Shown here: piece by piece, positions 38,843 to 54,805 of the stretch
How positions within the stretch are numbered: position 1 is the stretch's first letter
Layout: each line of letters starts with the position of its first letter
NCBI RefSeq assembly: GCF_000243255.1
Contig: NZ_CM001436.1
Location: 3,021,175-3,085,174 of the forward strand
Length of the DNA: 64,000 bases
Reading direction: 5' to 3'
DNA from: Methanoplanus limicola DSM 2279
GTDB taxonomy: Archaea; Halobacteriota; Methanomicrobia; Methanomicrobiales; Methanomicrobiaceae
The notes under the pieces: model-generated
What the model saw: the letters and a program-made list of their open reading frames with translations, nothing else
The model's database searches: none
What the model was told of the DNA's origin: nothing
Program-made: the position numbers and the translations under genes

Positions 38843-39580
38843 TCAGCAACTGCGGTATATATCTGCCATATCTTCAGAGATAAAAAACCTGGTGAATTTA
38901 CCTTCTTTTTTGGAGCTTACAATGCCGGAATCCGTCAGTCTCCTTATGTGCCAGTTAACTGTACTCTTATCGAGACTGATAATCCTGGAGATATGGTTAT
39001 GTGAAATCCCAGGCCTGTCTTTGATCAGACGAACAATATCCTTTGTTTTCTCATTCCGGCAAAATGCAATAAAAACCATCTCATCATGCCCATATCTGGA
39101 TTTATTCTGGAAATAACATAGTTTATGCCCTGTATTTATTGATACAACATCCCTTTCCCTTTCAAGCACGCGGATATGATACCTGATAGTTCCTGTGTTT
39201 AGACCTGTACATCTGCCTATTTCGGTTGTAGTGCAACCCGGATTTTTGTGGATAAATTCCATAATATTACTTCTTTTCAGATTCGGATTCTTACTCTCCA
39301 GTATCCTGCCGATAAAAGGAACAAGTTTTATGAAACAGAGTGATGAAACAAACAATCCCGACATCACAGATAATTTAATCCATAACGGCACATCTTCAAA
39401 ATCCCTGATACTGTCAGTTCCTGAAGAGTCAATATAGTCCCCCGGAACAGCTGAATCTGTAATAGTATACCCTTCATCATATGATGCAGATGCCGGGACA
39501 ACCAGAAACAGCACCCATATAGTGAAGAGCACTACAAGCTTCACGCCGGATATATTATATGCAGTATTTTTGTGTGCCAT
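38843..39580 (-). CDS. Membrane-anchored regulator with two winged helix-turn-helix domains
   Basis: 245 residues. A hydrophobic N-terminus (about 11-33, signal or anchor), a short outside loop and a second helix (about 68-90) precede two wHTH domains. The first (about 95-160) has TTTEIGRCTGLNTGTIRYHIRVLE. The second (about 175-240) has HNHISRIISLDKSTVNWHIRRL. The layout is that of methanogen membrane-bound one-component regulators. It starts within the last 26 bases of the upstream secreted-protein gene, after GAGAAGGT, so they are co-expressed. Repeated elements near 40228-40255 and 40917-40983 are candidate targets. Confidence 0.75.
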   Translation of the reverse strand: MAHKNTAYNISGVKLVVLFTIWVLFLVVPASASYDEGYTITDSAVPGDYIDSSGTDSIRDFEDVPLWIKLSVMSGLFVSSLCFIKLVPFIGRILESKNPNLKRSNIMEFIHKNPGCTTTEIGRCTGLNTGTIRYHIRVLERERDVVSINTGHKLCYFQNKSRYGHDEMVFIAFCRNEKTKDIVRLIKDRPGISHNHISRIISLDKSTVNWHIRRLTDSGIVSSKKEGKFTRFFISEDMADIYRSC

Positions 39581-40133
39581 TTACCTTCTCACCTTCTACA
39601 GCGTACCACCATTCCCCAAAAGGAAGTCCGTCATCTTTCCGGATATAAAAATAGATCTGCCCATTGCTTACACCATCTATGTCATCATAAAATGGTCCGA
39701 AGATATCTCCCTTTGGGGAATATACCATAAGGCTCAGATTTGATCTCTCATCCTCCCATTTGAGATTTATGTTGAGCGCAGTGGAATATGAAGTTATATT
39801 CTGGCTATGCCAGTTCCGGCTATTCTCCTCAATTATTACAGAGTCTTTTGGCCATCCTCTTTTCCACCTGTCCACTCTGGTTTTCTGATCACATGAAAGC
39901 TCATCATAAAATTCCGGCCATGTTTTCTGAAGGTATTCACCGATTGTTATATCTGCCCCCTCAATTTCATTCATAACTTCAAGCTGCTCTTCTGTAGCCT
40001 CCGCATATAATGCCTGTGCAGGCAGAATAATAATCATACAGAGTAGAATAACCGGAAGTATGAACTGAAATATCACAGGAAACCTTCTTCTTTGTCTCAT
40101 TAAGGAAATCTGCCGATTGAATTTTGTATTCAT
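39555..40133 (-). CDS. Small secreted protein, tandem paralogue 1
   Basis: 192 residues with a signal peptide (ending PAQA near 42). An acidic helical segment follows (about 44-90; QLEVMNEIEGADITIGEYL, EFYDEL, RWKRGWPKD), nearly the same as in the neighbouring gene at 40579-40860, and then a beta-rich C-terminal domain (LMVYSPKGDIFGPFYDD...; FYIRKDDGLPFGEWW). I do not recognise the family. ATG 40133 is used, but an internal ATG at 40100 is possible. It is transcribed with the wHTH regulator. Confidence 0.65.
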   Translation of the reverse strand: MNTKFNRQISLMRQRRRFPVIFQFILPVILLCMIIILPAQALYAEATEEQLEVMNEIEGADITIGEYLQKTWPEFYDELSCDQKTRVDRWKRGWPKDSVIIEENSRNWHSQNITSYSTALNINLKWEDERSNLSLMVYSPKGDIFGPFYDDIDGVSNGQIYFYIRKDDGLPFGEWWYAVEGEKVNGTQKYCI

Positions 40134-40275: not shown

Positions 40276-40860
40276 TCATGAATAATACATTGGGCCTGCT
40301 GAATCTGAGTCTTCAGCGTCAGGACTTAATGAGTAGCTCCATGCATTTGAGTTATAATATCCTGATGCAGGATACATATAGAGATTGGATGCGTCAATAT
40401 AACTTGCTGAGTTGCTGTATGCTGTTGAGCTTACAACCTGATCAGAGCTGTTTTTCAATTTCACCTCGATATAATGATATTGTGGTGTTCCTCCATAGAC
40501 AGTTGAATCACCACCGTAAGAGATTCTGTTCGTTCCACTGCCGATATAAGCATTTGTTGACATTGATGTCCTTGTTTTTCAACTTTCAGACACCTGATTT
40601 TCAGATAAACTTTTTGGCCAGCTTTTTTTCCAGCAGTTTACTTTTTCTTTCTGTTCTTCTGAAAGTTCATCATAGAACTGAGGCCAGACTTTCTGCAGGT
40701 ATTCACCAATTGTTATATCAGTTCCTTCGATCTCATTCATCACTTTCAGCTGTTCATCTGTTGCTTCTGCTTTCAGAGCGCTGACAGGAGATACTGAACA
40801 TATCACCATCCCCAGGATTAAAAAAATCCCGAACACTGTAAATTTCCTCGATTTATTCAC
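40276..40860 (-). pseudogene. Small secreted protein, tandem paralogue 2, interrupted by in-frame TGA
   Basis: The first part (start GTG 40860 after GGAAAGG; an in-frame ATG exists at 40944) has a signal peptide ending SPVSA and the same QLKVMNEIEGTDITIGEYL and EFYDEL-type segment as the neighbour. It stops at TGA 40579-40581. Five codons later, in the same frame, an ATG at 40563 begins 95 more residues with no signal peptide. They are rich in Ser, Tyr and Asn, extracellular-looking, and end GPMYYS. The simplest reading is one secreted protein split by a nonsense change. However, AAGGA seven bases before the 40563 ATG would allow independent translation of the second part. The C-terminal parts of the two paralogues are not similar. 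Confidence 0.5.
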
Positions 40861-40916
40861 TTTTCCTTTCCTGTACCTTTCTATGGCACAGACAAAGTTA
40901 TAATATTTTGAATAAA

Positions 40917-40944
40917 TATTATCTCTCTGATAACCATCCAACAA
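40917..40944. repeat. Upstream element copy 2 (28 bp)
   Basis: Second copy of the element at 40228-40255. Its end overlaps the left arm of the inverted repeat at 40937-40983. Confidence 0.6.
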
Positions 40945-42442: not shown

Positions 42443-43399
42443 TTGACTATTATATTAACTCCCGAAGAGGTCAGAGAACGCTTTGGCACAATGTTTTGCA
42501 GAAAATTTCTGGTTATAGTTGATGAAGAAGCAGAGAAGGCAGAAATTATCGAACATTGCTGTCACAGAGGGGCAATTGAATGGGATGTGATGAACCGCAG
42601 GCGTGCCGGCGGTGCTGTGGAATCAATAAGTGTTGAGGGTGCATCAATGACCATATCAGCAAAAATCGGCAAATTCCCGATTAATTTTGGTGCCGCAGGT
42701 GATGACATCGGAGGACAGGCGCTTGAAGGTGTATCTGTAGAAGGTGACCTTGTGGCAACCGACTGGGCAGGCATTGCAGGCGCCGGTGTCGGTGTTGCAG
42801 TATGCCTGCCGCAGGCACCGGGTGTTATCAGAACAGAATACCCGACAGAAGATGATCTAAAGGCAGGCGGGGCAAGGACATGCAGGACGAGGATCTACTC
42901 ACCGAAATATGTCAAAATATCAATCGGAATTGACGACACGGACACAAAGGAGTCAGGGGCAACCTGGGTGCTTGCATCCAAATGTGCCGAGGCGTGCACC
43001 ATTGAAGGTGTTGAATACCTCGACATGAGGCTCATTCAGTTAAACCCGAAGGTCCCGAACAAGACGACAAACTGCGTAGGATCTGCACTCAATTTTGCTG
43101 TCCGGCCGGATAAGGTGGATGAACTGCTTGCATTTGTAAAGGAGTTTATCGAGGAGAGATCTGTCAGTGAGGATACAGGCATTGCAGTATGGCGTGGACT
43201 TACACAGCCCGAATCACCGTATCTTGAAAAGATTAAGACTGAAGTTTTAAATGTTGAGGAGTGCGAGGCTGAAGCAGAAAGGCTTGGCATAGAGTATATA
43301 GATTCTGCAAAGAGCAAGGGCAGAATCGGTGCTCTTGGTGCAGTGCTCTGGGCAAACAGAGGAATTGAGGCGGCGGGGCTGTATGGAGAACATCTTTAA
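42443..43399 (+). CDS. DDTD protein, methanogenesis marker 11-like, paralogue 1
   Basis: 318 residues. The N-terminal half is a beta-rich domain with a Gly-rich core (AGIAGAGVGVAVCLPQ near 109-124). The second half begins with IGIDDTDT (161-168) followed by SGATWVLASKC, a TiaS-like nucleotide-handling motif. Conserved CC at 39-40 may be functional. Architecture and motifs match the protein encoded next door (43383-44261). That pair resembles TIGR03280, a family found only in methanogens and of unknown function. The start is TTG after GGTGA. It is the first gene of a nine-gene operon ending in aksF. An alternative is a separate, unnamed DDTD subfamily. Confidence 0.7.
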   Translation: MTIILTPEEVRERFGTMFCRKFLVIVDEEAEKAEIIEHCCHRGAIEWDVMNRRRAGGAVESISVEGASMTISAKIGKFPINFGAAGDDIGGQALEGVSVEGDLVATDWAGIAGAGVGVAVCLPQAPGVIRTEYPTEDDLKAGGARTCRTRIYSPKYVKISIGIDDTDTKESGATWVLASKCAEACTIEGVEYLDMRLIQLNPKVPNKTTNCVGSALNFAVRPDKVDELLAFVKEFIEERSVSEDTGIAVWRGLTQPESPYLEKIKTEVLNVEECEAEAERLGIEYIDSAKSKGRIGALGAVLWANRGIEAAGLYGEHL

Positions 43400-44261
43400 T
43401 AATCCATATTCCATCTCCTATCCGGAGATAATTGCTGTAAGCTCTGAGGACAACTCCAGGATAGAGCTTATAGAAAAATTTGACTGTATTGGCGGTGCGA
43501 TGTGGGCCGGAAATCATTACAGGAAAAGTCCGCTTACAGAATCAGTCAGAGTCGTGGGAAATACCCAGAGATTTATGCTGAGTACAGGGTGTGTGGACCT
43601 TGAGCTTGAGGGTTCATACTTCCCTGCCGGAATATGCGGTGCGGAAATTTCCGGTGATGAAATATCCATATCATACGTCGGCATGGGCGGCGGAGGAGTA
43701 GGAGCATCGGTGTGCAGATCCACTGCAAAGGGTGTCATAAAAAGTTCATCAGAGCCATGCGGAGGAGGGAAGGTTGCCGGTTCGACAATTACCCTTCCAA
43801 AGATGCAGAGGGTTGTAATCGGGATTGATGATACCGATACTGCCGAGGAGGGTGCAACGTGGACACTTGCACATAATATATCAAAGGCAGTTGAGGATGA
43901 GAATTCAAGATATCTCTCCCATACAATAGTTCAGCTCTTTCCCGTTCCTTACAGAACAAAAAACTGTGTGGCAATTGCATGTGAATTCGCCACCAGAGAG
44001 CCTGAGAAACTTATAAGCAGTTTTGAAGAGCTTGTCAGGAAGTACACACTCTCGGATGAGACAGGGCTATGTGCATTCTCCGGTTTTGATACAACACCAC
44101 TCAGAAAATACGGGGAGCAGGTTAAAGCCGGAGAAGTAAGCAATGCTGAGTTTGAAGAGATAAGAGAACTTCTTGAGATCAGAATTGAAGGAAGGGGAAT
44201 TATCGGTGCTGCGGCTGCAATTCCATTTTATACAGATTACGAAGAGGCTCTGAAGATATGA
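43383..44261 (+). CDS. DDTD protein, methanogenesis marker protein 11, paralogue 2
   Basis: 292 residues from the ATG 43383, which lies inside the end of the previous gene; longer upstream frames are not supported. It has FDCIGGAMW near 33-41, a Gly-rich VGMGGGGVGASVC loop (about 99-111), and IGIDDTDT at 146-153 followed by EEGATWTLAHN. The C-terminus includes GIIGAAAAIPF. I believe this is methanogenesis marker 11 itself. The reaction is unknown. Its gene overlaps that of the radical SAM protein by four bases. Confidence 0.75.
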   Translation: MENIFNNPYSISYPEIIAVSSEDNSRIELIEKFDCIGGAMWAGNHYRKSPLTESVRVVGNTQRFMLSTGCVDLELEGSYFPAGICGAEISGDEISISYVGMGGGGVGASVCRSTAKGVIKSSSEPCGGGKVAGSTITLPKMQRVVIGIDDTDTAEEGATWTLAHNISKAVEDENSRYLSHTIVQLFPVPYRTKNCVAIACEFATREPEKLISSFEELVRKYTLSDETGLCAFSGFDTTPLRKYGEQVKAGEVSNAEFEEIRELLEIRIEGRGIIGAAAAIPFYTDYEEALKI

Positions 44262-45232
44262 GATGGTGTGAATTAAAGGCCGGACTTCTGGAAGCGGGCA
44301 CTGCAAAGATTACAGGCGGAACTGAGGGTATAACTTCATTCTCAAAGGCAGGCCCGTCATCAGGAGAGGGCGGATCGGTCTTTTTTTCATCCGGAAACAT
44401 GAGAGTCCGGTTAAGCATTACGGATGACAGTCCGGTTGAGATTGTCATCACTGACAGAGATAATGCCGTACTTAAGTTTGAGGGAGAGGAAGTCGAAGGG
44501 AGGGTAGAACCTGCCACCCTTCACTGCCCCCGGCAGGCATTTATTACAGTCAGTGAGGGCTGTATATTCAGGTGCAGATACTGCTCTGTTCCCACCCAGG
44601 AGAAGAAGTTCAAGAGTCCTGAAGAGATTGATAGGATGATCGAAGGAGTTCTGCCTGATATAGACTGCATCTCACTTACAAGCGGAGTTATAGGTTCTCC
44701 CGAAGAGGATGAGGAGAGGGTCATTGAGGTTGTAACAAGGGTTATGAGATTCGGCTTGCCAGTCGGAGTTTCTATATACCCCCTTAAGGAAACTCCAAAA
44801 AAGCTCTTTGATCTCGGAGTTTTGGAGGTGAAGTTCAACCTTGAGGCTGCAACAGAGAAACTCTTTCAGGAGATCTGCCCGGAGATGGAGAGAGATCAGA
44901 TTATGGACGCACTCATAGAATCCGTGCGGCTTTTCGGGAAGAACAGGGTTTTTACCAATATAATCCTTGGTGCAGGTGAGAGTGATTCAGAGATGAGAGC
45001 CTGCATCTCAGAAGTCACAGCTCTTGGCATAATTCCGGTCATCCGTCCGCTGACACCTAAGGCAGAGATGTCTGAGAAAGCCGGATACAGCAGACCTGCA
45101 CGTGAGAGAATCCTGAATATTACAGAGTTTCTTGATGACGAACTACTCAAAAACGGACTTGATACCGGAGTTGCAGAGACTATGTGCACAGCCTGCACCG
45201 GCTGTGATCTTGTGCCAGGGAGGGATTTTTAG
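44258..45232 (+). CDS. Radical SAM protein with C-terminal CX2CX2C, biotin-synthase-related
   Basis: 324 residues. An unusual N-terminal region of about 90 residues precedes the radical SAM core with CX3CX2C at C102, C106 and C109 (CIFRCRYC). A further CX2CX2C (C310, C313, C316) at the C-terminus could hold an auxiliary iron-sulfur cluster. It resembles the archaeal biotin-synthase-related radical SAM group (COG2516-like). Within the operon it lies between two DDTD proteins and the thiamine-diphosphate protein. In lipoyl and biotin synthase, auxiliary clusters give sulfur; whether this one does so for the coenzyme B thiol is a hypothesis. Confidence 0.8.
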   Translation: MRWCELKAGLLEAGTAKITGGTEGITSFSKAGPSSGEGGSVFFSSGNMRVRLSITDDSPVEIVITDRDNAVLKFEGEEVEGRVEPATLHCPRQAFITVSEGCIFRCRYCSVPTQEKKFKSPEEIDRMIEGVLPDIDCISLTSGVIGSPEEDEERVIEVVTRVMRFGLPVGVSIYPLKETPKKLFDLGVLEVKFNLEAATEKLFQEICPEMERDQIMDALIESVRLFGKNRVFTNIILGAGESDSEMRACISEVTALGIIPVIRPLTPKAEMSEKAGYSRPARERILNITEFLDDELLKNGLDTGVAETMCTACTGCDLVPGRDF

Positions 45233-46414
45233 ATGACAAATCAGAAGTCCGGCTGTGATATACTTGCAGATGCACTGCTGAGAGCAGCAGATACTTACTA
45301 CACCGTCCCCGGATATCCGGTGACAGATCTTGCTGAGAAAGTTGATGCAGAATATGTCATAAATGAGAAAACAGCCCTTGAATATGCCCTTGGAGACTCT
45401 CTCTCAGGCAGGCGTTCGGCAGTGATCGTAAAAAATGCCGGAATGAACATTCTCGCTGATCCTATGGTAAACGCGGTTTATCAGGGGATAATCAGCGGAG
45501 TGCTGATAATTGCCGGAGACGATACAAAAGCCATTGGATCACAGACCTGCCAGGATTCAACGCATTATGCAGAGGTTGCAGATGTGCCCCTCATAGTGCC
45601 CAACAGAGATAACCTCTTCTCATCCGCAGAAACGGCCTTTCAGGCATCAGAGCGGTTCTCAAGACCGGCCATACTGAAAGTTACTGAAGACATTCTTGAA
45701 AACAGTGCCAAATCCGGCACTGTGATGCGCAAAGACCTGAAAGGAGAACTTGCTGACCCTCTGCTGACCATGAAAGGACGGTGTGAATCAGCCGGAAATA
45801 TAACGGCGGATATGTATGAGCAGACAGAATTTCCGCTAACATATCCTCCGGCAGACGACAGTAATCCAAAAGCCCGGACGAGGACAGAAAACCCGCAGAC
45901 CATGCCGGGCCGTGGTTATGCACGGACATTGTGCAGAAACTGCCCGTACAAAGAATTATTCTCAGCAATAAAAGATTCCAAAAGAGAGGTCATCTGCGAC
46001 ACCGGATGTTCACTTCTCTCCAAAAATCCGCCGTATAACTTCGGTATTGCAAATTACGGCCTTGGATCGTCAGTTGCAGCTGCCGCGAAGAGTACAGGCA
46101 TTGCCCTTACCGGCGACTACGCACTGCTCCATTCCGGAATTAACTCCCTGATCGATGTCTTTGAGAAAGAACTGCCCGTTCTGGTCATTGTCCTCTTAAA
46201 CAAAAAAATGGGAATGACCGGAGGGCAGGACTCACCCGATCTATTGAGGTACATACAGTGGGCAGAACCTGAAATTATCAGCTCGGATTCAATCAAACGC
46301 GGAAGCACCGGAGAGCTGTCCGTATATCTGAATGAAAAGCCTGACCGGCCAAAGGTCATCCTTATCAGCGGGGCATGCCCTGCGGGGGAGAAACATGAAA
46401 AAATTAAATGTTGA
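45233..46414 (+). CDS. IorA-like thiamine-diphosphate protein lacking the ferredoxin domain
   Basis: 393 residues. The N-terminal PYR-like domain has VINEKTALEYALGDSLSG (likely catalytic Glu 45) and KNAGMNILADPMVN. The C-terminal PP-like domain has CRNCPYKELF (C234, C237), CDTGCSLL (C255, C259), and the diphosphate/metal motif GD (294-295) to N323 with MTGGQ after it. These match the alpha subunit of indolepyruvate:ferredoxin oxidoreductase, but the middle domain and the C-terminal 2[4Fe-4S] ferredoxin (about 200 residues) are absent. It lies between the radical SAM gene (adjacent) and aksA (20-base overlap). A 2-oxo-acid decarboxylase or lyase acting on 2-oxosuberate is a reasonable guess. 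Confidence 0.75.
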   Translation: MTNQKSGCDILADALLRAADTYYTVPGYPVTDLAEKVDAEYVINEKTALEYALGDSLSGRRSAVIVKNAGMNILADPMVNAVYQGIISGVLIIAGDDTKAIGSQTCQDSTHYAEVADVPLIVPNRDNLFSSAETAFQASERFSRPAILKVTEDILENSAKSGTVMRKDLKGELADPLLTMKGRCESAGNITADMYEQTEFPLTYPPADDSNPKARTRTENPQTMPGRGYARTLCRNCPYKELFSAIKDSKREVICDTGCSLLSKNPPYNFGIANYGLGSSVAAAAKSTGIALTGDYALLHSGINSLIDVFEKELPVLVIVLLNKKMGMTGGQDSPDLLRYIQWAEPEIISSDSIKRGSTGELSVYLNEKPDRPKVILISGACPAGEKHEKIKC

Positions 46415-47522
46415 AATATGTGATGTCACATTAAGAGACGGTGAACAGACACCCGGTGTCTCATTCACCTGCGAAGAGAAGAAGAGTATTGCCCTTATGC
46501 TTGATGAGATAGGGGTTGAGGTCATTGAGGCGGGATTTCCAAGCGTCTCTGAAAATGAGAAGAGATGCGTCAGGGAGATAGCAGACATGGGCCTTTCCGC
46601 ACGGACATGCTGCCTGTCAAGAGCCGTTAAGAGCGATGTGGATGCTGCCATTGACTGTGGTGTCGATCTCGTCTCGATCTTCTTTGCAACCTCCGACCTG
46701 CATATAAGAATTAAATACAAAAAGACCCGCGAGGAGATGCTTGAGGAAGCGCTCAGAATGGTGGAGTACGCAACCGAACACGGCATTGATGTGAGGTTCT
46801 CCGCCGAGGAAGGGTCAAGGACCGACATTTCGTTCTTAAAAGAGATGTTTGAGAGAGGATATGAGGCCGGTGCAAAGTACAGCAGTATTGCCGATACTGT
46901 CGGGTGCATGACTCCGGTTGAGATGTACAATACTGTCCTTGATGTTACAGAGACCCTGAAAAACCCGCTCTGTGTCCACTGCCATGACGATATGGGCTGT
47001 GCAACCGCCAATACAATATCAGCCGCACAGGCAGGGGCATTTCAGCTGCATACAACCATAAACGGAATTGGTGAACGTGCCGGAAACGCTGCTCTTGAAG
47101 AGGTGCTTGTGGCACTGAGGATGAAAGGCGGAATTGACCGTTATAACCTGACACCGCTTATGAAGACCTCTAAAATGGTGGAGGAGTATTCCGGAATTAA
47201 GGTCGCAAAGAACAAGGCTGTTGTCGGGGACCATGCATTCTCGCATGAGAGCGGGATACATATCGCCGCAATGCTCGTTGAACCGTCCGCATATGAGTAT
47301 TTCCCTCCGGAACTTGTGGGCGGGCAGAGAAAGTTCATACTTGGCAAGCATACCGGAAGAAAAGCCCTTGAGCATGTAGTAAAATGCCTTGGGTGCAGTA
47401 TAACCAGAGATGAATGTGCCTGGGTTTTGGAGCAGATAAAAACCAAGAGTGAGGGGAAGTGCAGTATAACACCGGAAGTTCTTCTTGCAATATTAAAAGA
47501 GGCCAGGGAGGAGAAGCATTGA
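46395..47522 (+). CDS. aksA: Homocitrate/homologue synthase AksA
   Basis: 375 residues from the ATG 46395 (ribosome site GGGGGAG). CDVTLRDGEQTPGVSF, the HCHDDMG metal site and GERAGNAALEEV are diagnostic of the isopropylmalate/homocitrate synthase family. The methanogen AksA condenses acetyl-CoA with 2-oxoglutarate and then with its longer homologues to build the C7 chain of coenzyme B. LeuA and CimA are alternatives, but the operon with aksD, aksE and aksF favours AksA. Confidence 0.88.
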   Translation: MKKLNVEICDVTLRDGEQTPGVSFTCEEKKSIALMLDEIGVEVIEAGFPSVSENEKRCVREIADMGLSARTCCLSRAVKSDVDAAIDCGVDLVSIFFATSDLHIRIKYKKTREEMLEEALRMVEYATEHGIDVRFSAEEGSRTDISFLKEMFERGYEAGAKYSSIADTVGCMTPVEMYNTVLDVTETLKNPLCVHCHDDMGCATANTISAAQAGAFQLHTTINGIGERAGNAALEEVLVALRMKGGIDRYNLTPLMKTSKMVEEYSGIKVAKNKAVVGDHAFSHESGIHIAAMLVEPSAYEYFPPELVGGQRKFILGKHTGRKALEHVVKCLGCSITRDECAWVLEQIKTKSEGKCSITPEVLLAILKEAREEKH

Positions 47523-48730
47523 CAACACTTTCTGAAAAAATTTTAGGTGGAAAGGAGGGGAGTTTTGTTGACCGGAAGGTTGACAGGGCTTTTGCACATG
47601 ACGGAACAGGTGTTCTGGCACTTGACTCATTCAGGAAGATGGGCGGGGTTAAGCCTGAAAATCCGGGTAAGATCTCAATAATTTACGACCATATAACTCC
47701 GGCAAACAACTCGACAACGGCAGAACTTCAGCACGAACTGAGGGATTTTTCAAAAAGTGCCGGGGTTAACTTTTATGACATCGGATGCGGAATCTGCCAC
47801 CAGGTGATGAGTGAAGGCGTATGCAGACCGGGAGAGATTGTTGTAGGTGCTGACTCACATACCTGCACGCTCGGTGCATTCGGTGCATTCGCAACCGGAG
47901 TAGGGGCAACGGATATGGCCGCCATCTGGGAGACAGGTGAGACATGGTTTAAGGTTCCGGAGACAATCCGGGTAAATCTTGAAGGCAAACTGACCGGGCA
48001 TACCGAGGCCAAGGACGCAGCACTTGAATATATCCGGATGCTCGGCATGGACGGGGCTTCATATATGGCACTGGAGTTCACAGGTGAGGGTGCTGAAAGT
48101 CTCCCGATGGAAGGCCGGCTTACCATGTCAAATATGGCAATTGAGGCAGGAGCGAAGGCAGGACTTTTTTATTCAGACAAAGTGACAGCAGAATATCTCG
48201 CACATTTGGGCATTGAGTCTGAGAGGCAGAATGCTGAGAATCCGTCATATGCAAAGGAGATCGACATCGATCTCGGGATTCTGTCTCCAATGCTTGCAGT
48301 CCCCCACAGAGTAGATACTGGAGTTCCGGTTGAGAAGTATGCCGGAACAGCCCTTGATCAGGTCTTTGTCGGGACATGCACAAACGGGAGGTATGAAGAC
48401 CTGAAACGGTTTGCCGACATTGTCAGGGGCAGGACAGTAAAGGTGAGGACGGTTGTTGTCCCGGCATCAAAGAGTGTGCTTGAGAAGGCTGTCTCCACCG
48501 GAATTCTGCTCGACATTATCAGGGCAGGATGTGCCGTCGGAACACCGGGATGCGGGCCGTGCCTTGGTATGCACATGGGCGTATTGGGTGAAGGTGAGGT
48601 AGGACTTTCGACTGCCAACCGGAATTTTAAGAACAGAATGGGAGTCGGTGCTGAATATTATCTCTGCTCTCCGTCAACCGCCGCCGCAAGTGCCCTTGCA
48701 GGCGAGATCAGATCTCCGGAGGAGAACTGA
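47519..48730 (+). CDS. aksD: Homoaconitase large subunit AksD
   Basis: 403 residues. It starts with TTG inside a TTGA overlap with the aksA stop, preceded by GGGAGG. Aconitase-family signatures are GADSHTCT, the cluster cysteines TCTNG (about 300) and GCGPCLG (about 355). The methanogen large subunit works on homoaconitate and longer homologues. LeuC is the close alternative; context decides. Confidence 0.87.
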   Translation: MTTLSEKILGGKEGSFVDRKVDRAFAHDGTGVLALDSFRKMGGVKPENPGKISIIYDHITPANNSTTAELQHELRDFSKSAGVNFYDIGCGICHQVMSEGVCRPGEIVVGADSHTCTLGAFGAFATGVGATDMAAIWETGETWFKVPETIRVNLEGKLTGHTEAKDAALEYIRMLGMDGASYMALEFTGEGAESLPMEGRLTMSNMAIEAGAKAGLFYSDKVTAEYLAHLGIESERQNAENPSYAKEIDIDLGILSPMLAVPHRVDTGVPVEKYAGTALDQVFVGTCTNGRYEDLKRFADIVRGRTVKVRTVVVPASKSVLEKAVSTGILLDIIRAGCAVGTPGCGPCLGMHMGVLGEGEVGLSTANRNFKNRMGVGAEYYLCSPSTAAASALAGEIRSPEEN

Positions 48731-48731
48731 G

Positions 48732-49205
48732 ATGGAAAATAAAGGAACAGCGGTATGCATCGGTGAGGATGTCGATACCGATATGATAATCGCAGGGCGG
48801 TATCTCAGGACAAAGGACCGTAAGGTCTGGGCAGATCATGCCTTTGAGGATTATGACCCTGATATTGCAGGCAGGCTTAAAGGATCTGTAATAATTGCCG
48901 GAAAGAATATCGGCTGCGGATCGTCACGTGAGCAGGCGGCAATTGCACTTAAAGAGGCAGGGGTCCTTGCCGTGGTATCACCCTCATTTGCAAGGATATT
49001 CTTCAGAAATCTGGTGAACACCGGAATTTTGGTCTTTGAGACAGATGAGATAAAATGTAAGGACGGTGACGAAGTTATCTTCTCAGCCGATGAAGACCGG
49101 GTTGAGGTTGCCGGTATTCGCTATGACGCAAAACCGATCTCCGAGAGTATGAAGGAGATTATCAGGGCAGGCGGACTCATCGAGTATATGAGGAAGAGGA
49201 GATGA
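48732..49205 (+). CDS. aksE: Homoaconitase small subunit AksE
   Basis: 157 residues from the ATG 48732, one base after the aksD stop (ribosome site GGAGGAG). EDVDTDMIIAGRYL opens the swivel domain and GCGSSREQAAIAL is the substrate loop. YLRT and related residues in the loop fit the homoaconitase type. It pairs with AksD. Confidence 0.87.
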   Translation: MENKGTAVCIGEDVDTDMIIAGRYLRTKDRKVWADHAFEDYDPDIAGRLKGSVIIAGKNIGCGSSREQAAIALKEAGVLAVVSPSFARIFFRNLVNTGILVFETDEIKCKDGDEVIFSADEDRVEVAGIRYDAKPISESMKEIIRAGGLIEYMRKRR

Positions 49206-50008
49206 TCTTTCCCCGGCACTGCAAAGAGGTCGGAATGGCTGAATCCGCACCTTATGGTGAGGATCAGATCTATTTTTTAAGCAGGTATGTAATCCGGAAA
49301 TTTCCGGACGGGACTTTTGAGACCGGAACTGTGGAAGTGGATGAGAAGGGGGGGCTTCTACGAAGTGTCAGGGAGTATAAGAAGATCTCAGGGCCGGATG
49401 AGACATGGCTGTATCCGGAAAAGGTCATCCTGCATGACAGGGCGGACTTAATCAGGAAGGCTGCCGGTTCAGGGAGAAAATGCACAATTTTTGAGGGCTT
49501 TGACGGCCATATGACATTTGTTGCAGATCCTGATCTGTCAGTTCTTCTGAAAGTTCACATTTACGACTCAAAGCCACCCTTTCCGGTATTATCCGAAACT
49601 GTCAGAAACCTTGAGAAGACGGGGATATTCGGCGGCCTTGAAATTGAGTTTGTACACCATATCATTGACATTGAAGATATTAAGGCAGATGTCTATCCCT
49701 GCCGGGCGGCCGGGTTTGATAAGACACTTGACAATGACAGACTAAAAGGCGGTGAGAGGATTGCCGGATGCCTGACTGCACGGCAGATGGTTGCCGAGTG
49801 GTATGGGGATGAAAAGGAATTTGAATTCATTAATATATGTCCGCTTGATCTTGCAGATGAGGAGCCTTTTGTTGCCCGTTGCTGCAGGTCGGAGAGATCC
49901 GGGCTGTACGTGGGCGAGAGAACCGGAGTTGCAGTGCACTGGGGAGTATCTCCAAAGGAGATCTCTGATGCAGTTTATGAAGCAGTAAGTGCATGGAGAA
50001 AAATATGA
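49202..50008 (+). CDS. Unknown protein inside the coenzyme B operon
   Basis: 268 residues, soluble, no signal or membrane segment. I do not recognise a family with certainty. Visible features are a mixed alpha/beta fold, an acidic profile, C93 in KCTIFEGFDGH, a VHHIIDIEDI segment, GCLTARQMVAEWYG, and a C-terminal CCR (about 227-229) followed by GVAVHWGVSP. The start is either ATG 49202 (ATGA overlap with aksE) or ATG 49235 after GAGGT. It is coupled on both sides, between aksE and aksF, which argues for a part in coenzyme B synthesis. Confidence 0.65.
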   Translation: MIFPRHCKEVGMAESAPYGEDQIYFLSRYVIRKFPDGTFETGTVEVDEKGGLLRSVREYKKISGPDETWLYPEKVILHDRADLIRKAAGSGRKCTIFEGFDGHMTFVADPDLSVLLKVHIYDSKPPFPVLSETVRNLEKTGIFGGLEIEFVHHIIDIEDIKADVYPCRAAGFDKTLDNDRLKGGERIAGCLTARQMVAEWYGDEKEFEFINICPLDLADEEPFVARCCRSERSGLYVGERTGVAVHWGVSPKEISDAVYEAVSAWRKI

Positions 50009-50964
50009 AGATTGCTGTTGTGCCGGGGGACGGTATAGGAAAGGAAGTTACACCGGTTGCTGAAGAAGCCGTCAGGCATTACCTTCTGGATGCTGAGTAT
50101 ATTTATGCCGAGGTTGGCTATGGCAGGTGGGAGAGAACCGGTGAGGCAGTCACTGATGAGGATATAGATCTCCTGAAAGAATCAGATGCTGTCTTATTCG
50201 GTGCAATCACAACCGTGCCTCACCCGGACTATAAAAGTGTCATACTCAGAATCAGGAAAGAACTTGATCTCTACGCAAACCTAAGACCCGTATCCGGTCC
50301 CGGATTTGATATCGAGATAGTTCGGGAAAATACCGAAGGGCTTTACTCCGGCATTGAGGAGACGGGGGACGGGAGATCGACCACACTCAGGGTTGTAACC
50401 AGGAAGGGAAGCGAAAGGATTGCGGAGTTTGCATGCGAAAGGGCAAAGCTGAGAAAAAAAGAAATTGTCATCGGTAATAAGGCCAATGTGCTGAAGTCTG
50501 ATGTTCTCTTCAGGGACACCTGCATAAAGGTAGCCGAAGAGAATGGCATTGCTTCAAAGCCGATGTATATTGACGCCCTTGCCCTCGATGTCCTGATGCA
50601 CCCGAAGCGCTATGACGTTATTGTCACAACAAATATCTTCGGGGATATTCTGAGTGATGTATGCGGGTTCTTAACCGGAGGATTGGGCACACTTCCGAGC
50701 GGCAACTACGGCGTTAAGAATGCCCTTTTTGAACCGGTTCACGGGAGTGCTCCGGATATTGCAGGAAGGGGCATTGCAAATCCGGTGGCGGCACTCAGAA
50801 GCGCAGGTATGCTTCTTGATTATCTTGGTGTTGATGGAGCTAAAAATGAGATTGAAGAGTCTATACAGGCGCTACTTAATAAAGGCATTTCAACTCCTGA
50901 TCTCGGTGGAGACATTAGAACAGCAGATTTTGGTGAGAAGGTCATTGCCGGAATTATGAGATAA
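50005..50964 (+). CDS. aksF: Homoisocitrate dehydrogenase AksF
   Basis: 319 residues from the ATG 50005 (ATGA overlap with the unknown gene; an in-frame ATG four codons upstream is possible). VVPGDGIGKEV, RENTEGLYSGIE, TNIFGDILSD and EPVHGSAPDIAG mark the isopropylmalate/isocitrate dehydrogenase family. AksF oxidises and decarboxylates homoisocitrate and longer homologues. LeuB is the close alternative. A good hairpin terminator follows. Confidence 0.87.
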   Translation: MKIAVVPGDGIGKEVTPVAEEAVRHYLLDAEYIYAEVGYGRWERTGEAVTDEDIDLLKESDAVLFGAITTVPHPDYKSVILRIRKELDLYANLRPVSGPGFDIEIVRENTEGLYSGIEETGDGRSTTLRVVTRKGSERIAEFACERAKLRKKEIVIGNKANVLKSDVLFRDTCIKVAEENGIASKPMYIDALALDVLMHPKRYDVIVTTNIFGDILSDVCGFLTGGLGTLPSGNYGVKNALFEPVHGSAPDIAGRGIANPVAALRSAGMLLDYLGVDGAKNEIEESIQALLNKGISTPDLGGDIRTADFGEKVIAGIMR

Positions 50965-52706: not shown

Positions 52707-53933
52707 ATGCTTACCAATGAAGAACAAAAAGTGGGATTATATACATTTAAAGAAATACCAACCAATCCAAAAGAAGTTACGCCATTTACTCCCGTAAATA
52801 ATCTGAATCTGAACTGGAGTGAGAAAGATCTGCCTGAGAGAATACGTACCAGGCACGTTAACCGCCTTCATCCATATCTTGGAAAATATATTCCACAGCT
52901 TGTGGAAGTATTCCTAAGAAAATATTTTGTCAGGGGGCAGACAGTAATTGATCCATTCTGTGGTTCCGGAACGACTCTTGTTCAGGCTAACGAACTTGGA
53001 ATTAATTCAATTGGTTATGATATATCAGCATTTAATGTCCTTTTAACAAGAGCAAAAACTTCAGATTATGACATTCCTTCAATGAGAAGGGAAATTCTTG
53101 ATATTCTTGAGAAGGTAAGAATTTCAACCCAGACTGAGCCTAAACAGCAGACACTCTGGGCAGAATGCACAAAAGAGCCGTTTCTAACTGAGGAAAATAA
53201 CGAATATCTTAATATGTGGTTTGCCCCGCAGGCTTTAAAAGAACTTCTGACATACCGCTACTTTATTGAAAGTGGAGATTATCAGTATAAAGATCTTTTA
53301 AAAGTTATTCTAAGCAGATCTGCCAGATCTGCAAGGCTTACCACACATTTTGACCTTGATTTCCCAAAAAAACCTGTGACAGAACCGTACCACTGTTACA
53401 AGCATAACAGAATCTGTCAACCCACACAGGTTGCCTTTAAATTTTTAAAACGCTACAGTACGGACACTATTAAAAGAGTTACAGAATATTCTTCACTTAA
53501 AACCGATGCATCCGTAGAAATACGCCACGAAGACTGCCGCTATGCAGATTTCCCAAAATCAAACGGAGTAATCACAAGCCCCCCTTATGTAGGACTGATT
53601 GATTATCATGAGCAGCATGCATATGCATACCATCTGCTTGGTCTTGAGGATAAGAGAGAAAGAGAGATAGGACCGGCAGCAAAAGGGAAAAGCAAAAATG
53701 CAAAGGAAAATTATCAAAGGGATATTGCTGAAGTTTTCCGGAGAGCTATAAATTCAATGGAACCTGAAGGCCGCCTGGTTGTTGTTGCCAATGACAGGGA
53801 TAATCTATATGACGATATTGCAGATTCGCTTGAGATTGAAGTTGAGGATATAATTCAACGTCATGTTAACCGGAGAACCGGGAGACGTGCAGGAGAATAT
53901 TATGAATCCATCTTCATCTGGAAAAAAGTGTAG
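52707..53933 (+). CDS. Site-specific DNA methyltransferase, N4-cytosine type
   Basis: 408 residues. Motif I DPFCGSGTT is at 82-90 (S-adenosylmethionine binding) and motif IV SPPY at 291-294 (catalytic, the N4-cytosine/N6-adenine form; SPPY favours N4-cytosine). The 200 residues between them leave room for a target-recognition region, an alpha-like order. It protects host DNA from the endonuclease encoded two bases later. Codon use and base content look more AT-rich than the neighbouring methanogenesis genes, fitting acquisition by transfer. A start at ATG 52707 is used. Confidence 0.88.
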   Translation: MLTNEEQKVGLYTFKEIPTNPKEVTPFTPVNNLNLNWSEKDLPERIRTRHVNRLHPYLGKYIPQLVEVFLRKYFVRGQTVIDPFCGSGTTLVQANELGINSIGYDISAFNVLLTRAKTSDYDIPSMRREILDILEKVRISTQTEPKQQTLWAECTKEPFLTEENNEYLNMWFAPQALKELLTYRYFIESGDYQYKDLLKVILSRSARSARLTTHFDLDFPKKPVTEPYHCYKHNRICQPTQVAFKFLKRYSTDTIKRVTEYSSLKTDASVEIRHEDCRYADFPKSNGVITSPPYVGLIDYHEQHAYAYHLLGLEDKREREIGPAAKGKSKNAKENYQRDIAEVFRRAINSMEPEGRLVVVANDRDNLYDDIADSLEIEVEDIIQRHVNRRTGRRAGEYYESIFIWKKV

Positions 53934-53935
53934 TT

Positions 53936-54805
53936 ATGTCTGATTCTGATGAGATGAAAAATGCCATTCAGACTGTCATAAAAGATCTGATGGATAAAAT
54001 TATGGATAAGGTCCTTGATTCTGATCCCTTTGTAAAAGAGGAACATCATTTAAAGAAACCTCTTTATGCCGCACTTGTTCCTGATGAAATATTTAAGGGA
54101 TCGCACTTCGAGAGGAGATTTGTAACTCCGTTTGGAAAGGTGTGGGAACAACTGGCTGTAGTTGCTGCCACAAACGGCATGGGGTATGGAACTACCGGAT
54201 ACAGAATAGACGGAATGATCAGAGAGAAACGTCTGCACAGAATTGCAGAAACTCTTAACAGACTTGAGCATTCAGCAAAAGGTGATAATAAGGTAAAACC
54301 AGACTGGGAAAAAGAACTTGCCTATATTAAAAAAGAAAAAGGGGAATTAATTCCGGTTTCAGTAGTATGTGACCTCTATGTTGAGGACCGTAATAATGAC
54401 AGAAAATATGCCTTTGAACTTAAGGCTCCACTACCCAACAGCGATCAGACAAAAGTGAGTAAAGAGAAGATATTGAAACTTCACTGCATGGAACCGTCTG
54501 TAATTGACGGTGCCTACTTTGCCCTGCCATACAATCCTTATGGAACCCGTGAGAATTATTCATGGAGTTTTCCGGCGAGATGGTTTGATATGAAAAATGA
54601 CGAAGTTGTCCTGATCGGAAATGATTTCTGGGACTACATTGGCGGAAAAGGAACATATGAGGCCTTTATCTCAGCAGTAAATGAAATCGGCCCGAAGTAC
54701 AGAGAGAAAATCTACCGGGAATACCTTGCAATTTCACCTCCTAAAGGTTATAATTCGGAATTTGATCTGCTGAGGGAAACCACAGGGAATTATTATTACG
54801 AGTAG
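53936..54805 (+). CDS. Type II restriction endonuclease, TdeIII-like
   Basis: 289 residues. The likely catalytic core is D146 and E161-L-K163 (VVCDLYVED, then FELKAPLPNSDQTK), a PD-(D/E)XK site. The conserved run after it (SDQTKVSKEKILKLH) resembles the TdeIII/MjaII family. Members known to me cut GGNCC; that specificity is a guess for this protein. The gene starts two bases after the methyltransferase stop, forming a typical R-M pair. Confidence 0.75.
   Translation: MSDSDEMKNAIQTVIKDLMDKIMDKVLDSDPFVKEEHHLKKPLYAALVPDEIFKGSHFERRFVTPFGKVWEQLAVVAATNGMGYGTTGYRIDGMIREKRLHRIAETLNRLEHSAKGDNKVKPDWEKELAYIKKEKGELIPVSVVCDLYVEDRNNDRKYAFELKAPLPNSDQTKVSKEKILKLHCMEPSVIDGAYFALPYNPYGTRENYSWSFPARWFDMKNDEVVLIGNDFWDYIGGKGTYEAFISAVNEIGPKYREKIYREYLAISPPKGYNSEFDLLRETTGNYYYE

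Follow-up and report, generated by a model that had tools for sequence, protein, structure and literature searches.

Methyl-coenzyme M reductase, the maker of biological methane, takes its electrons from coenzyme B, a cofactor whose accepted pathway includes free 7-oxoheptanoate. An analogue by reaction is ComDE of coenzyme M biosynthesis, which decarboxylates an acidic 2-oxo acid non-oxidatively before a thiol-forming step. For coenzyme B itself, the enzymes between 2-oxosuberate and the cofactor are given as unknown (PMC10384328, PMC12068725; see also PMC3087415). The bacterial route to coenzyme M offers a further point of comparison in XcbA, a protein tied to its sulfoacetaldehyde step (PMC11507031).

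Here we examine a thiamine-diphosphate (ThDP) enzyme encoded in the window, the 64,000-nucleotide stretch of the Methanoplanus limicola DSM 2279 genome that was analysed. We consider it very likely that the protein acts in coenzyme B biosynthesis, and put at about 0.6 the probability that it is the non-oxidative 2-oxosuberate decarboxylase of that pathway. No mention of the gene in such a role was found in the literature searched, which is weak evidence as few subscription papers were covered. The gene and its neighbours are as follows.

42443..43399, + strand: second, divergent marker-11 paralogue (TIGR03280, below cut-off)
43329..44261, + strand: methanogenesis marker 11, TiaS-like (TIGR03280, over cut-off)
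44258..45232, + strand: radical-SAM protein of 324 aa with invariant Cys at 102/106/109 and also at 90, 207, 310, 313, 316
45233..46414, + strand: ThDP enzyme (PYR and PP domains), 393 aa; candidate 2-oxosuberate decarboxylase
46395..47522, + strand: aksA-like synthase of chain elongation (start taken at MKKLNVEICDV); matches HMGL-like and 2-isopropylmalate/homocitrate synthase families without reaching equivalog cut-offs
47459..48730, + strand: aksD-like homoaconitase large subunit (TIGR02086 / PRK00402, over cut-off); longest ORF, true start probably further in
48648..49205, + strand: aksE-like homoaconitase small subunit (TIGR02087, over cut-off); longest ORF
49202..50008, + strand: DUF7714 (PF24830, E 3.5e-83), distantly related to XcbA, a coenzyme M protein
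49993..50964, + strand: aksF-like homoisocitrate dehydrogenase (Iso_dh; best specific matches LEU3_arch and AksF2_Meth, below cut-off)

The ThDP reading frame occupies exactly 45233-46414 on the plus strand, its ATG lying directly behind the TAG stop of the radical-SAM gene. At its other end the likely aksA start (46395) falls 20 nt before the end of the ThDP stop codon, so the overlap proposed in the sequence-only reading of this locus is real and about 20 nt long. Elsewhere in the window, two neighbouring ORFs (39555-40133 and 40579-40944, minus strand) are almost the same over one stretch (EATEEQLEVMNEIEG...EYLQKTWPEFYDELS), which looks like a duplication. At 52707-54805 a gene resembling a DNA methyltransferase adjoins what looks like its partner, and the two may form a restriction-modification pair.

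The protein carries the catalytic glutamate of a ThDP enzyme in its PYR domain and a G-D-x(27)-N motif in its PP domain, both preserved in 61 relatives. The residues that bear on this and on the cysteines discussed below are these.

45365..45367, + strand: codon of catalytic Glu45 (NEK motif), invariant in 61 sequences and also present in IorA
45932..45943, + strand: C234-x-x-C237, proposed [4Fe-4S] ligands, invariant and aligned with IorA
46007..46009, + strand: C259, proposed [4Fe-4S] ligand, invariant, aligned with the 'GIGC' cysteine of one beta subunit of a 2-oxoacid:ferredoxin oxidoreductase (OFOR)
46112..46117, + strand: Gly294-Asp295, start of the ThDP/Mg motif, invariant in 61 sequences
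46199..46201, + strand: Asn323, end of the ThDP/Mg motif, invariant in 61 sequences
46376..46378, + strand: C382, fourth proposed [4Fe-4S] ligand, invariant, matched in the alignment by a C-terminal cysteine in IorA and in an OFOR beta subunit

The sequence-only reading had placed Glu45, Gly294-Asp295 and Asn323 correctly, and the glutamate on which it depended is present in every relative compared. It had also described an IorA-like protein stripped of the ferredoxin and middle domains, and this too agrees with the profiles: NCBIfam IOR_alpha (TIGR03336) scores 138.9 bits where its cut-off is 650.9, and does so over two separate stretches that correspond to PYR and PP, the C-terminal TPP domain (PF02775) matches over its Pfam cut-off, the IorA middle domain is absent, and neither Pfam nor NCBIfam profiles find a 4Fe-4S ferredoxin domain (Fer4) in the 393 residues. 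Loss of the ferredoxin domain alone proves nothing, because some bacterial proteins that group with IorA have lost it as well, nor is the absence of a middle domain decisive, since the likely orthologues of Methanosarcinales and Methanocellales have one. The residues around the cofactor add to the picture, as two positions of the ThDP loop have changed from IorA to this family in near-fixed manner (Y27 to V, T30 to Y) and the GDS of IorA has become GD[YF]. The VPGYPVTDL loop weakly resembles VPGIPITDL of oxalyl-CoA decarboxylase, with which it shares the VPG-x-P pattern.

An AlphaFold2 model of the protein (pLDDT 93.8, pTM 0.94) has the PYR/PP fold of solved members of the decarboxylase superfamily, which supply its top structural matches (Z scores of 25.7-28.1, with 318-348 residues aligned at an rmsd of 3.3-4.7 A). 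The 50 best matches include no oxidoreductase structures, which excludes nothing, and a predicted fold common to this protein and the decarboxylases does not show function. The resemblance to oxalyl-CoA, benzoylformate and pyruvate decarboxylases and to acetolactate synthase lies in fold and PYR/PP arrangement; unlike them, the ThDP protein has no middle domain, has cluster-type cysteines, and is only 12-18% identical.

The genome that encodes the protein (3.2 Mb, one contig) also has a separate, full IorA (591-aa frame, at 1415639), which matches both TPP domains and Fer4 domains and has an IorB-type gene directly behind it. The genome holds five IorB/gamma-type genes, the other four each lying beside another oxidoreductase ORF; none of the five is near the ThDP gene and no IorB-type gene is unpaired. 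The claim that no beta subunit lies nearby is thereby upheld, every potential partner being located elsewhere with other subunits. In the tree, canonical IorA forms one clade (99/97) that excludes the ThDP protein, which belongs to a separate clade of methanogens; the ferredoxin-less forms, including the 390-aa form, fall outside the IorA clade, and three divergent short sequences (L174, L177 and L179) branch on the IorA side and are not regarded as clear members. A true IorA is ruled out on four grounds: score, architecture, partner and tree. With IorA the protein has in common PYR and PP, the catalytic glutamate, the ThDP/Mg residues and four cluster-type cysteines, and it differs in lacking the ferredoxin domain, middle domain and IorB, in its low score and separate clade, and in its changed signature residues.

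ComDE was likewise rejected as the identity of the protein. A genuine, fused ComDE is encoded separately at 1521051 of the same genome and has no significant sequence similarity to the ThDP protein (0.7-2.7 bits), and the ComD and ComE families are absent among its NCBIfam matches up to E 0.1. The two are alike in consisting of PYR and PP only (381 aa in ComDE, 393 aa here), so that ComDE is a works-like analogue, not a close relative.

The cysteines required the largest revision. The sequence-only reading had named residues 234, 237, 255 and 259 as possible cluster ligands; C234, C237 and C259 are indeed invariant across 61 relatives, whereas C255 is kept in only 19 of 32, and the fourth invariant position is instead C382. 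All four align with cysteines of IorA, and a trimmed OFOR beta subunit from the same genome, whose alignment covers C259 and C382, agrees at those two, so that the protein has the four ThDP-proximal cluster cysteines of an OFOR. Related OFOR beta subunits with solved structures carry a [4Fe-4S] cluster at these positions. Because all four cysteines matching that ThDP-adjacent cluster are invariant, an iron-sulfur cluster is probably retained here, and we infer from the alignments one [4Fe-4S] cluster beside the ThDP. The similarity to the two-subunit (alpha/beta) OFORs is confined to these proposed proximal-cluster cysteines; unlike those enzymes, the ThDP protein joins PYR and PP in a single chain and has neither a CoA/gamma domain nor distal clusters. 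The earlier argument that the protein has no electron outlet thus stands as far as the ferredoxin domain is concerned, and is weakened by the four retained cysteines. A non-oxidative reaction therefore has to be deduced from the pathway and not from anatomy. The retained site may have a structural role, or may couple to the radical-SAM partner.

Gene context ties the protein to coenzyme B much more strongly than the sequence-only reading could tell. The gene is found in about 104 of 120 Methanomicrobiales genomes, the other 16 giving IorA-level matches only. Among 71 loci compared, 68 cover the stretch behind the ThDP gene and in every one aksA follows directly on the same strand, overlapping in 67; the radical-SAM gene adjoins it in all 65 loci that contain that gene. 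Such conservation takes the observation beyond chance. Across families of the order, 20 loci have the arrangement radical SAM, ThDP, aksA, aksD, aksE, DUF7714, aksF, preceded by marker 11 and with minor rearrangements; a few are without the second marker-11 paralogue or an upstream formyltransferase gene. In all 68 of these loci, then, the ThDP gene accompanies genes for the chain elongation of coenzyme B synthesis, as it does in Methanomassiliicoccales (see below). G048, a Methanomicrobiales genome that is 97% complete and has McrA, is missing the gene. The 1.81 Mb of it that were searched gave neither a DUF7714 nor a radical-SAM match, nothing close to marker 11, and only 38-40% paralogues of the aks genes. 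Eight of 16 sampled genomes of its genus also have no ThDP gene. Joint loss of the set in G048 is only suggestive, because flanking genes including hdrBC also gave weak matches only in those 1.81 Mb and an assembly gap could account for this. The two tandem marker-11 paralogues of the window (42443-44261) are related to the tRNA ligase TiaS, and as a kinase/ligase relative in the operon marker 11 is a candidate for joining threonine phosphate.

The radical-SAM neighbour is fused to the ThDP protein in a single 719-aa ORF in two other genomes. It has five invariant cysteines beyond its CX3CX2C motif, its best family matches include, weakly, the LipS2 lipoyl synthases, and it may be a sulfur-handling enzyme of the coenzyme B pathway. 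In the window (45230-45238) its gene shares a reading frame with the ThDP gene and stops at a TAG; the stop is TAG in six of six unfused in-frame loci (including L040, L051, L089, L095 and L104) and TGA or TAA in other loci, and read-through or recent fission of a fusion are both possible. A second radical-SAM paralogue in the same genome (G000:C1:2548390-2549364) contains one in-frame TGA.

DUF7714 has six invariant cysteines and falls below the cut-off of the XcbA family (NF052538 CoM_XcbA_fam) at E 5e-12, as does its Methanocellales-type relative at E 7e-22. A fold search with its model (pLDDT 89.6) returned no significant solved relative (best E 3.5e-3), so that its proposed chemistry derives from the XcbA-family match. 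On that footing DUF7714 is a candidate for the aldehyde-to-thiol step.

Similar associations occur outside the order. In Methanomassiliicoccales, which belong to another phylum, a form of 355-384 aa heads an aksA-D-E-F run in genomes that have McrA; only four of 100 genomes of the class carry this short form, other matches being essentially full-length IorA. These copies are nested within Methanomicrobiales in the tree, and therefore the sequences suggest gene transfer. In one of these runs an aldehyde dehydrogenase gene lies behind aksF (L074:12809-14167). Methanosarcinales, Methanoperedens and ANME-2 have a form of about 500 aa that has no ferredoxin domain, keeps the middle domain and adjoins marker 11 or aksA/aksD; in Methanosarcinales the neighbour is usually marker 11, not the aks genes. 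This longer form also lies, in one Methanocellales-type genome (L249), between marker 11 and radical SAM on one side and aksA-D-E-F and DUF7714 on the other, completing the full set; the Methanocellales-type label of the genomes concerned (G127 and G142) was assigned from genome content. In such genomes a protein of 209-222 aa with no Pfam or NCBIfam match is encoded between the ThDP gene and aksA (L248:6933-7598, L249:8216-8842).

Twelve sampled genomes, which are not independent samples and include G264, the source of divergent sequence L174, have the radical-SAM orthologue (E at most 1e-75), DUF7714 and a short ThDP form together. In three others (G163, G123 and G223) neither DUF7714 nor the radical-SAM orthologue was found; two of the three have McrA and are also without the ThDP form, and the third, G223, has only the divergent short form L179. 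Marker 11 of G163, which has McrA, and of G223, both without DUF7714, has a more distantly related radical-SAM gene as its neighbour (E about 1e-23; G163:C5:72163-74044, G223:C3:116899-118569). Further lineages in the phylum sample are without the short form, and as a control DUF7714 was present in M. acetivorans and absent in M. jannaschii. Given McrA genomes without the ThDP form and M. jannaschii without DUF7714, other methanogens would need another enzyme if they make coenzyme B.

In the mechanism we favour, the ancestor would have been an OFOR of IorA type from which the ThDP protein lost the ferredoxin domain and the IorB partner and, in Methanomicrobiales, also the middle domain. 2-Oxosuberate, the product of AksA/D/E/F, would bind ThDP and lose CO2, and the resulting enamine would be protonated to release 7-oxoheptanoate without net oxidation, after which a downstream enzyme, probably the XcbA-like DUF7714, would convert the aldehyde to 7-mercaptoheptanoate. 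The main argument for a non-oxidative outcome is that if DUF7714 makes a thiol from an aldehyde, the preceding enzyme must release an aldehyde. Such chemistry finds support in a ferredoxin-linked relative, the P. furiosus POR, because that oxidoreductase is known to release aldehyde too (PMC4030962). Against it, judging from the conserved positions, a pure decarboxylase would not obviously need four invariant proximal-cluster cysteines. The substrate, the non-oxidative outcome and the roles of the partners are what we infer from this: gene position most likely indicates the step, and the superfamily the chemistry. The sequence-only proposal of a 2-oxosuberate decarboxylase instead of an IorAB oxidoreductase is accordingly strengthened by the operon, the radical-SAM fusion, co-occurrence with DUF7714 and the want of a free IorB, and it loses the electron-outlet argument.

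Those same cysteines are the starting point for an unlikely alternative, in which the ThDP and radical-SAM proteins jointly catalyse a redox or radical reaction of coenzyme B synthesis, a ThDP enamine or radical exchanging electrons with the radical-SAM protein through the cluster to give an oxidised or directly sulfurated C7 unit and no free aldehyde. The fusion or adjacency and co-occurrence of the two orthologues, the lipoyl synthases among the family matches, and the room for an auxiliary cluster in the five extra cysteines all speak for this, but free 7-oxoheptanoate is listed as a pathway compound (PMC10384328), DUF7714, as a relative of a sulfoacetaldehyde-linked protein, suggests an aldehyde intermediate, and in Methanomassiliicoccales the radical-SAM and ThDP genes are not adjacent. 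That the two form one machine, with a cluster-coupled, ThDP-bound 2-oxosuberate intermediate sulfurated by radical-SAM chemistry without free aldehyde, seems to us distinctly improbable. We give very little credence to the related idea, prompted again by the fusion and the cysteines, that the enzyme is an electron source which oxidises a 2-oxo acid to reduce the radical-SAM cluster and does not use the chain-elongated acid at all: Methanomassiliicoccales and ANME-2 link the ThDP gene to aks genes without an adjacent radical-SAM gene, ferredoxin is available as a general donor, and the protein has no IorB/CoA partner.

The substrate might also be another 2-oxo acid (2-oxoadipate, 2-oxopimelate or an aromatic one) leading to a different product, as superfamily relatives use many 2-oxo acids and the aks genes also make 2-oxoadipate and 2-oxopimelate; the presence of DUF7714 and the complete set of four aks genes in the operon points instead to the final chain length, and a separate IorAB serves the aromatic acids, which makes this quite unlikely. 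Finally, the protein could be an oxidoreductase alpha subunit that borrows a gamma/IorB subunit from elsewhere in the genome, in keeping with its cluster cysteines and with the bacterial IorA-grouped proteins that also lack the ferredoxin domain. This is the most doubtful of the readings, the probability being very slight indeed, given that one of the five gamma-type genes directly follows IorA and the remaining four are neighbours of other oxidoreductase ORFs, and that the ThDP signature residues differ from those of IorA.

A non-oxidative decarboxylase therefore remains our preferred reading, and it puts forward a definite, conserved protein that can be tested as the enzyme decarboxylating 2-oxosuberate, among the last missing steps of coenzyme B biosynthesis. 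The ThDP enzyme and DUF7714, proposed for the thiol step, are both linked to the radical-SAM protein and marker 11. If the reading is true, a ferredoxin-linked oxidoreductase would have been turned into a biosynthetic decarboxylase, apparently with its iron-sulfur site kept.
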